Shown in pieces: positions 9,344 through 35,303 of a stretch of 37,100 nt of DNA. The position numbers were made by a program, and so were the translations under genes. This stretch comes from Gammaproteobacteria bacterium (lineage in GTDB: Bacteria; Pseudomonadota; Gammaproteobacteria; Eutrophobiales; Eutrophobiaceae): contig JACPSH010000035.1 in assembly GCA_016193395.1 (NCBI GenBank), forward strand, positions 1 to 37,100, written 5' to 3'. The notes under the pieces were generated by a model. The model was not told where the DNA came from. It saw only the letters and a list, made by a program, of their open reading frames with translations, and ran no database searches. Each line of letters begins with the position of its first letter. Positions within the stretch are counted from its first letter, which is position 1.

Positions 9344-10213
9344 ATGTCCGAACTCGACAAATTCCTCGCCCGTGCGCACGCGCTGCTCGATCGGATCGAG
9401 CCGTTGCTGCCCGGCGGTGATCGCGCCGCCGGGGCGGAGGCCGCAAGCGCCTTCCGCTGGCGCCGGCGTGGAACCCACGGCGTGCTGGAGGAAATCCGCC
9501 ACAGGAGTCCTATCATGCTGGCCGACCTGCAGTGCATCGACCGGCAGAAAGAGATCATCGATCGCAATACGCGCCAGTTCCTGCGCGGCCTGCCGGCAAA
9601 CAACGTCCTGCTCGCCGGTCCGCGCGGCACCGGCAAATCGTCGCTGGTGAAAGCGCTGCTCAACGCCTATCGAGCCGATGCACTCAAGCTGGTCGAAATC
9701 GGCCGCGACGACGTAGCCGATCTGCGCGACGCGGGCGACGCGGTGGGCGGCAAGGCGGGGCGGTTCATCCTGTATTGCGATGACCTCTCGTTCGAGACGG
9801 GCGATGCCGGATACAAATCGCTCAAGTCGGCCATCGACGGTTCCACCGGCGCAATGCCGGACAACGTCCTCATCTACGCGACGTCCAACCGGCGCCACCT
9901 GGTCCCGGAAACCATGCGCGAGAACCTGGACAGCCACGTCATCGAAGGCGAGCTGCACCTGAGCGAGGCGCTTGAAGAAAAGTTGTCGCTGTCCGAACGC
10001 TTCGGGATCTGGCTCACGTTCCAGCCGTTCAACCAGGAGCAGTATCTTGCCATCGTCGATTACTGGCTGAAGCGACTCGGTGCGCCTGTGGCGCTGCCGG
10101 AGGCCGAGCGTGACGCGCTGCAATGGGCGCTGGAACGCGCGTCGCGCAGCGGACGCAGCGCCTGGCAGTTCGCCTGCGACTGGACCGGGCGGCATCGGCT
10201 CCTCGACGCATGA
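9344..10213 (+). CDS. DUF815-family AAA+ ATP-binding protein
   Basis: 289 residues. A helical N-terminal part leads to a P-loop ATPase: Walker A GPRGTGKSS at 92-100, Walker B-like FILYCDDLSFE near 139-149, and a sensor-1-like LIYATSNRRHL. This arrangement with DDLSFE matches the DUF815 family, whose cellular role is not established. The start follows a divergent intergenic region. The stop overlaps the next start as ATGA, so the two genes are translationally coupled. The pairing with a nucleoside phosphorylase gives no clear functional hint. Family assignment is confident; function is unknown. Confidence 0.88.
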   Translation: MSELDKFLARAHALLDRIEPLLPGGDRAAGAEAASAFRWRRRGTHGVLEEIRHRSPIMLADLQCIDRQKEIIDRNTRQFLRGLPANNVLLAGPRGTGKSSLVKALLNAYRADALKLVEIGRDDVADLRDAGDAVGGKAGRFILYCDDLSFETGDAGYKSLKSAIDGSTGAMPDNVLIYATSNRRHLVPETMRENLDSHVIEGELHLSEALEEKLSLSERFGIWLTFQPFNQEQYLAIVDYWLKRLGAPVALPEAERDALQWALERASRSGRSAWQFACDWTGRHRLLDA

Positions 10214-10950
10214 TTGAGCTGGGCATCATCGGCGGCTCCGGCCTGAAGGCACTGGCCGGATTCGAACTCCTGCACCAGAAAGAACCCTCGACGCCGTTCG
10301 GCGAGGCGTCCTCGCCGCTCAGCTTCGGCACCTTTGCCGGGCGCGAAGTCGTCTTCCTCGCCCGCCACGGGCAACCGCACCACATTCCACCGCACAAGGT
10401 GAATTACCGCGCTAACCTCTGGGCGCTGCGCGCGAACGGCGTAAGCAAGGTGATCAGCATCAACGCCGTCGGCGGCATAAGCGGCGGCATGCAGCCGGGC
10501 CGTATCGTCATCCCGGACCAGATCATCGACTACACCTCGTCGCGGGCCCACACCTTCTTCGATGGCGACACGGCGAAGGTCGTGCACGTGGACTTCTCCC
10601 GTCCTTACGACGAAGGTCTGCGGCGGATACTGGTCGATGCTGTGGTCGGCGACGGGCTGGATGTGCGCGACGGGGGGACGTATGGGGCGACGCAGGGGCC
10701 GCGGCTGGAAACCGCCGCGGAGATCCAGCGCATGGAGCGGGACGGCTGCCATATCGTCGGCATGACCGGCATGCCGGAAGCTTCACTGGCGCGCGAACTC
10801 AGCCTGCGCTACGCGTCGATCGCCGTGGTGGCCAACTGGGCCGCCGGCAAGCTCGATGAGGAAATCAGCATGGCCGTGATCGAGCGCAACCTGGCCGATG
10901 GAATGCAACTCGTGCAGCGCCTGCTCATGCGGGCGGTGCCGCTGCTTTAA
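10210..10950 (+). CDS. S-methyl-5'-thioinosine / methylthioadenosine phosphorylase family enzyme
   Basis: 246 residues, purine nucleoside phosphorylase family 2. It shows GIIGGSGL (phosphate loop, about 5-12), FLARHGQPHHIPPHKVNYRAN (phosphate and sugar contacts), NAVGGI, GGTYGATQGPRLET and MTGMPEASLA near the purine/methylthio site. Downstream, NWAAG replaces the Asp-rich base-binding segment of adenosine-specific MTA phosphorylases. In Pseudomonas the homologous gene, also near mfd/csiV, encodes a phosphorylase specific for 5'-methylthioinosine. By inference this protein splits MTI into hypoxanthine and MTR-1-phosphate, the substrate of MtnA encoded at 33025-34071. The alternative is a plain MTA phosphorylase; the mtaD-like gene in the same window favours MTI. 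Confidence 0.88.
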   Translation: MIELGIIGGSGLKALAGFELLHQKEPSTPFGEASSPLSFGTFAGREVVFLARHGQPHHIPPHKVNYRANLWALRANGVSKVISINAVGGISGGMQPGRIVIPDQIIDYTSSRAHTFFDGDTAKVVHVDFSRPYDEGLRRILVDAVVGDGLDVRDGGTYGATQGPRLETAAEIQRMERDGCHIVGMTGMPEASLARELSLRYASIAVVANWAAGKLDEEISMAVIERNLADGMQLVQRLLMRAVPLL

Positions 10951-33024: not shown

Positions 33025-34071
33025 TCAAAAAAGGGCCGAAATTTTGACCCGATCCGGCCTCTCCACAACCCCTTTTTCGGTGACCAGGACGTCCACCAAG
33101 GCGGCCGGCGTGACGTCGAACACCGGATTGTGGACGGCGGCCTCGGGTGGGGCCGTGACGGTGCCCGCGAAGCGACGCAGTTCGTCTGCATCGCGGTTCT
33201 CTATTGGAATAGCGGCGCCGATATCCGTTTTCAGGTCGATGGTCGAGAGCGGCGCCACCACCATCAGGCGCACGCCATGATGGCGGGCGAGCACGGCCAG
33301 CGGGTAGGTGCCAATCTTGTTCGCGACATCGCCGTTTGCGGCGATCCGATCCGCTCCCACAATCACCCAGCGGACCGCGCCCGAATGCATCAGCGAACCC
33401 GCGGCGCTGTCGGCGATCACGGTCACCGGTATCCGATCGCGGGCCAGTTCCCAGGCCGTCAGACGCGCGCCCTGCAGCCAGGGCCGCGTTTCGCCGGCAT
33501 ACACGGCATCCAGTTTTCCCGCGGACCAGGCGCTGCGGATCACACCCAGCGCCGTGCCGTAGCCGCCGGTGGCGAGCGATCCCGCATTGCAATGGGTCAA
33601 TACGCCGCCACCCTCGATCAGCGCCGCGCCGAGTATGCCCATGTGACGGTTGGCGGCGATGTCTTCCTCATGGATTTTCCTGGCGGCCTCGAGCAACGCG
33701 GGTACGGGATCACCCCCGAGTTCCGATGCGAGCTTGCGCATTCTTTCCACCGCCCAGCGCAGATTGACGGCCGTGGGCCGCGCGCTGGCCAGCAGATCCA
33801 GAACCGGGTTGAAGTATTCGAGCCAATTCCCGGGATGGCGCTCCCAGGTCTCGCGTGCGGCGAGCACGACGCCGTAGGCCGCGGCGATGCCAATGGCCGG
33901 CGCACCACGCACGGCCATTGCGCGGATCGCATCGATGACCGCCTCCGCGCTGCGCAACCGGAGGTAAGTCTCGGCCCCGGGCAGCAGCCGCTGATCGAGG
34001 ATTTTGACAGCGCCCTCCTCCCACACGAGTGGCCGCACCGTGTCGTGGGATAGTTTCGCCTTTTTGGCCAT
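33025..34071 (-). CDS. mtnA: S-methyl-5-thioribose-1-phosphate isomerase MtnA
   Basis: Isomerises MTR-1-P to MTRu-1-P in methionine salvage. 348 residues from the ATG at 34069-34071; an open frame continues upstream antisense to the next gene and is not coding. [18 protein letters not shown] (about 49-66), [18 protein letters not shown] with the catalytic Cys, and [21 protein letters not shown] with the catalytic Asp are present. The mRNA start may be at the ATG, since GATAAT (34079-34084) is only 7 bp upstream. It diverges from the mtaD-like gene by 21 bp. Adjacency of mtnA and gyrA is the Pseudomonas order. Confidence 0.95.
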
Positions 34072-34092
34072 AATGCGGATTATCGCAAATAT

Positions 34093-35303
34093 ATGATTAT
34101 CGACACCCTCATCTGCGCCCGCTGGGTCATCCCCGTCGAGCCCGAAGTCAAAGCTCTCGACCACCACGCCGTGGCAGTGGACAACGGCCGCATCGTCGAA
34201 CTCCTGCCCGTCGAAGACGCCCGGGCGAAATACCAGGCGCGCGAAATTCACGAACTCGATTCCCACGCCGTCCTGCCCGGCTTCGTCAATGTCCACACCC
34301 ACGCGGCCATGACGCTGTTCCGCGGCCTTTCGGACGACCTGCCGCTCATGGAGTGGCTGAACCACCACATCTGGCCCGCGGAGATGAAATGGGTCTCGCC
34401 CCGGTTTGTGACGGACGGCTCCGCCCTCGCCGCGGTCGAGATGATCCGCGGCGGCACGACCTGCTTCGGCGACATGTATTTCTTCCCGAATCAGACCGCG
34501 GAAGTCGCGGCCGAGGCCGGCCTGCGCGCCGTCATCGGCCTCATCGTCATCGATTTTCCTTCGCCCTGGGCCCAGGACGCCGCCGAATACCTCTCCAAGG
34601 GCCTCGAGGTGCACGACCGCTGGAAGCACCATCCCCTGATCCGCACCGCGTTCGCGCCACATTCGCCCTACACGGTCTCCGAAAACGCGCTCAGGCGCAT
34701 CAACACCTACGCCGAGGAGCTGGACATCCCCATCCACATGCACCTGCACGAAGTGGAGATCGAGATCGAGCAAAGCATGGAACAGCACGGCAAGCGGCCC
34801 ATGCAACGCCTGGAGGAACTTGGCATGCTGAGCGAACGGCTCATCGCCGTGCACATGACTCAACTGGAGCAAGGCGAGATCGCACTCGCCGCGAAGTACC
34901 GAATTAACGTCGCCCATTGCCCGGAATCGAACCTGAAGCTCGCCAGCGGCTTCTGCCCGGTGCAGGAACTGCTGAATTCGGATGTCAATGTCGCGCTCGG
35001 CACCGACGGCGCCGCGAGCAACAACCGACGATCGGCGGCGCGCGGGCACTGGGACTGGAAAAGGAGATCGGCTCGCTCGTGCCCGGCAAGGAGGCCGACC
35101 TCGTCGCCATTGACCTCGATGCCCCCGAGACCCAGCCCGTCTACGACCCGGTTTCGCAGATCGTCTATTCCGCCAGCCGCTCGCAGGTGACGGACGTATG
35201 GGTGGCCGGCCGGCCGCTCATGGAAAACCGCGAGCTGCTGACGCTCGAGGTGGATTCCACCCTTGCGCCGGCCATGGAGTGGCGGCACAAGATCAGAGAG
35301 TAG
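34093..35303 (+). pseudogene. mtaD: 5'-methylthioadenosine / S-adenosylhomocysteine deaminase, frameshifted by an internal deletion
   Basis: Amidohydrolase that deaminates MTA to MTI. The first ~311 residues are intact: [19 protein letters not shown] (first two zinc His), [31 protein letters not shown] and GTDGAASNN with the metal Asp. After GTDGAASNN (ending at 35025) the frame shifts; the other frame at once continues [20 protein letters not shown] then [10 protein letters not shown] to the normal C-terminus, stop 35301-35303. The usual DLDMxxEMRTAALL segment, about 45 codons, is missing. The sequence fits a deletion of 3n+1 nt between 35025 and 35026. Left as read, the protein would end at 35190 with an out-of-frame tail. 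A sequencing or assembly error is the main alternative. Confidence 0.9.

Follow-up and report, generated by a model that had tools for sequence, protein, structure and literature searches.

A 100-base gap in the MTA deaminase gene of a gammaproteobacterial draft genome is most likely an assembly drop-out

Results and discussion

Here we report that the frame-shifting break in an MTA deaminase gene (mtaD), within a 37,100-nucleotide stretch of gammaproteobacterial DNA (the window), most likely reflects an assembly drop-out that affects an ordinary MtaD gene, rather than the loss of a step in the pathway. We place at roughly 0.87 the probability that the organism carries an intact gene of this kind and that 100 bases were lost when sequence pieces were joined during assembly. 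The original prediction described the same break and offered three readings of it: loss of the first step, a phosphorylase acting directly on MTA, or a local assembly error. The deposited sequence does contain this break, although its size had been overstated; the last reading is the best supported of the three, but the error is not merely local, as four more gaps of 89-132 nt were found in the same assembly.

Structure of the broken mtaD gene

The window corresponds to contig 21 in a genome assembly of 60 contigs and 2.71 Mb, with a completeness of 96.65% and a contamination of 0.05%, whose nearest named relatives, judged by mtaD, are gammaproteobacterial metagenome-assembled genomes. The deaminase locus comprises the following features:

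34093-35025, plus strand: 5' part of an mtaD-type deaminase (TRZ/ATZ family hydrolase, residues 1-311, to GTDGAASNN), frame 1; NF006549 506.8 bits, profile positions 8-317
35025/35026, no strand assigned: mtaD junction, 100 bases absent with a frame shift; 102 bases in 56/56 measurable relatives, 2 here
35026-35303, plus strand: 3' part of the mtaD-type deaminase, frame 3, to the stop; NF006549 117.9 bits, profile positions 350-440

The NF006549 scores rule out a chance match, and the two halves belong to one predicted deaminase, as had been claimed. The 5' part shares 59-69% identity with relatives of the same family; its translation contains all of the amidohydrolase metal-site signatures and matches Amidohydro_1 at 167 bits. 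As assembled, the gene has no full-length match above the curated NF006549 cut-off (540 bits), the halves scoring separately. Across 35025/35026, exactly where the break had been placed, GTDGAASNN is followed by TIGGARALG, which is read in a different frame. The DLDMxxEMRTAALL segment expected after GTDGAASNN is absent, in keeping with the prediction, and profile positions 318-349 are unmatched between the halves. Outside the gap the reading frame is undecayed. The gene thus resembles the MtaD of Pseudomonas aeruginosa and its relatives (NF006549) in that its halves follow the order of the family model and it is divergent from mtnA as in relatives, and differs from it in lacking positions 318-349 and in being frame-shifted as assembled.

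Two local explanations for the junction were tried and rejected: the only direct repeats are weak, 12 nt long and away from the junction, and a DNA hairpin at the junction is no more stable than shuffled sequences (z 0.88).

Conservation of both halves might also suggest that the two pieces together yield an active deaminase, through recoding or by acting as a split enzyme. The DNA itself lacks the codons for about 33 conserved residues, including DLDMxxEMRTAALL, which recoding cannot restore, and the mtaD region occurs only once in the assembly of 2.71 Mb and 60 contigs; we give this explanation next to no chance.

The gap measures 100 bases in comparison with relatives

An alignment of both halves to the mtaD of relatives, as had been proposed for close ones, drew on two collections and covered 57 loci. 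Exactly 102 bases separate the SNN codons from the ACG-equivalent codon in all 56 measurable loci, although a few of the 57 may represent one genome present in both collections, so that somewhat fewer than 56 relatives are independent. The window has 2 bases in this interval; therefore 100 bases are missing, or 34 codons minus 2 bases, in place of the approximately 45 codons (some 130 bases) first estimated. The NF006549 profile coverage on either side of the junction agrees with this size.

Similar gaps in other conserved genes of the assembly

A gap in the adenosylhomocysteinase gene (SahH) prompted a wider look for gaps of this kind in the assembly (G000). Genes were compared in both directions between 766 kb of it (28%) and 2.0 Mb of a relative, G010. 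At least four conserved genes besides mtaD carry gaps of 89-132 nt in these 766 kb:

G000:C55:143016-144293 (L074:1501-2793), minus strand: SahH (adenosylhomocysteinase), gap at C55:144155, 132 nt lost in frame
G000:C43:57885 (L091): PurL, 113-nt frame-shifting gap; the halves match PDB 1t3t residues 11-150 and 192-1299
G000:C43 about 490: short-chain dehydrogenase (SDR), 89-nt frame-shifting gap
G000:C55 about 159826, exact junction less certain: pirin-like protein, 113-nt frame-shifting gap

The last of these is presumably pirin-like. In SahH, two profile matches abut in the genome and the 44 profile positions (residues) between them are missing; a PDB alignment places the loss between EEYGPK and HAAAAIA, and with it goes the segment (substrate loop) that holds the HMT substrate-binding motif. 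Four of the five gaps, mtaD included, change the frame, and that in SahH does not. The SahH gap is probably the same artefact as the one in mtaD.

The sequence GCAACAAC precedes both the mtaD and the pirin junctions, which may be coincidence.

Among the approximately 412 G010 genes matched in these stretches of the assembly, none showed a small-indel frameshift. The reverse comparison yielded no comparable gap in G010; of its matches, several fell on antisense open reading frames and a few either were weak or involved shifts of 1-2 bases. The test for recurrence thus gives 5 gaps of 89-132 nt in the window's genome against 0 in G010, in a small comparison covering 28% of the genome.

Faulty joins or true deletions

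Natural gene decay proceeds mostly by small indels and nonsense changes. Losses of 89-132 nt in unrelated genes, without the ordinary mutations of pseudogenes, therefore point to faulty joins in the draft assembly and not to gene decay. In the mechanism that we propose as the simplest, two sequence pieces would have been joined where about 100 bases of mtaD were missing, and the same process would have left the other drop-outs of 89-132 bases across the draft genome. The joins were probably technical; scaffold gaps, for instance, may have been closed at an underestimated length. A run of six Ns between two genes at G000:C24:17426-17431 suggests scaffolding with small estimated gap sizes.

The pattern shares with the join errors of draft (metagenome-type) assemblies the similar-sized drop-outs in several conserved genes, the lack of other decay and an N gap in the assembly, and differs from them in that no N stands at the gap junctions. 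We found no account of this kind of assembly error in the literature searched. The intact partner genes, which encode the MTIP-type phosphorylase and MtnA (described below), and an mtaD frame that is otherwise undecayed count in favour of a drop-out. On the other side stand the small size of the comparison with G010, the lack of an N at the mtaD junction, and the fact that a de Bruijn assembler needs reads spanning a junction, so that the explanation has to call on a gap closer, a scaffolder or chimeric reads.

The same N-free junction is what would be seen if mtaD had recently been inactivated in the population by a genuine 100-bp deletion that shifts the frame, in which case MTA would go without deamination and the steps run by MTIP and MtnA would be left stranded or close to loss; taken literally, the sequence reads so. 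A close mtaD is also absent from 4 of 24 family members (G005, G012, G014 and G024), which makes natural loss possible; two of the four genomes are clearly incomplete. In G005, whose completeness is rated at 100%, the MTIP homologue is interrupted by an in-frame TGA (G005:C6:237377-238096, L216), and a true loss of the MTA deaminase/MTIP pathway is possible there. For the window, however, a true deletion requires that SahH, PurL, the SDR and the pirin-like gene be broken alike, by 89-132 nt, with no small-indel frameshifts in the matched genes, and the MTIP and MtnA genes are still full length. We consider it unlikely. Loss of SahH and PurL would be costly. Were all the deletions real, MtaD, SahH and PurL function would have been lost jointly and recently by deletions of about 100 bp, and the recycling of S-adenosyl by-products would be stranded and supplied by neighbours, which strikes us as a long shot.

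Taken at face value, the assembly would be scored as having no MTA deaminase and as having damaged SahH and PurL, and wrong conclusions about auxotrophies or lost pathways would follow. In an assembly with recurrent drop-outs of 90-130 bases, no broken gene should be interpreted until reads support it.

Partner enzymes of the deaminase

The two other genes of the route, which had been described as intact, look full length:

33025-34074, minus strand: MtnA, S-methyl-5-thioribose-1-phosphate isomerase, full length; TIGR00512 439.9 bits, profile positions 2-334 of 335
10210-10950 (start about 10210), plus strand: S-methyl-5'-thioinosine phosphorylase (MTIP type), full length; NF006599 359.8 bits; best PDB match 3ozb, which we take to be the P. 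aeruginosa enzyme

MtnA is divergent from the adjoining mtaD, and this opposite orientation is kept in 37/37 relatives that have mtnA in the locus. The phosphorylase carries a PNP_UDP_1 match at 10219-10938 (plus strand).

An enzyme working directly on MTA would make the deaminase dispensable, so that it could have been lost without penalty, and the phosphorylase does score above the cut-off of the MTAP model (288.9 against 274.85 bits). Its top model, however, is the methylthioinosine phosphorylase equivalog NF006599 (cut-off 223 bits), its best structural chain is 3ozb, and N/AAGK stands at the site of the DYD motif in the MTAPs compared. On these grounds of sequence the gene is best described as a putative S-methyl-5'-thioinosine phosphorylase, and it is not a likely stand-in for MtaD. 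In P. aeruginosa, moreover, deamination of MTA precedes phosphorolysis (PMC6302742). Direct phosphorolysis also leaves the other four gaps unexplained, and this part of the original prediction is accordingly disfavoured to the point of being very improbable.

With a phosphorylase of the methylthioinosine type and an intact MtnA, the pathway would therefore be stranded without MtaD. If the organism has an ordinary gene, as we favour, intact MtaD would deaminate MTA to methylthioinosine, the MTIP-type phosphorylase would then release hypoxanthine and MTR-1-P, and MtnA would isomerise the latter.

A search of the assembly for a replacement, which had been suggested as a check, returned no second MTA deaminase, no MTA nucleosidase and no member of the adenosine deaminase family (PF00962). 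The only PNP-family gene besides the phosphorylase was rejected as an MTA nucleosidase, being HpnG-like (best model HpnG, slightly under its cut-off). The other amidohydrolases were likewise set aside: for three the closest models are of the Xaa-Pro dipeptidase type and one has no match, with L006 lying outside this classification.

Other irregular genes in the assembly

Two further genes differ from their G010 counterparts. At G000:C45:12601-16965 (L160), a protein of 1454 aa corresponds to one of 1631 in G010, with several in-frame gaps, one of them 273 nt, that may reflect natural divergence or drop-out. At G000:C44:83679-84317 (L088), the match to a G010 protein spans the length of the gene and includes a stop codon close to the N-terminus; these are possibly two open reading frames here that are fused in G010.
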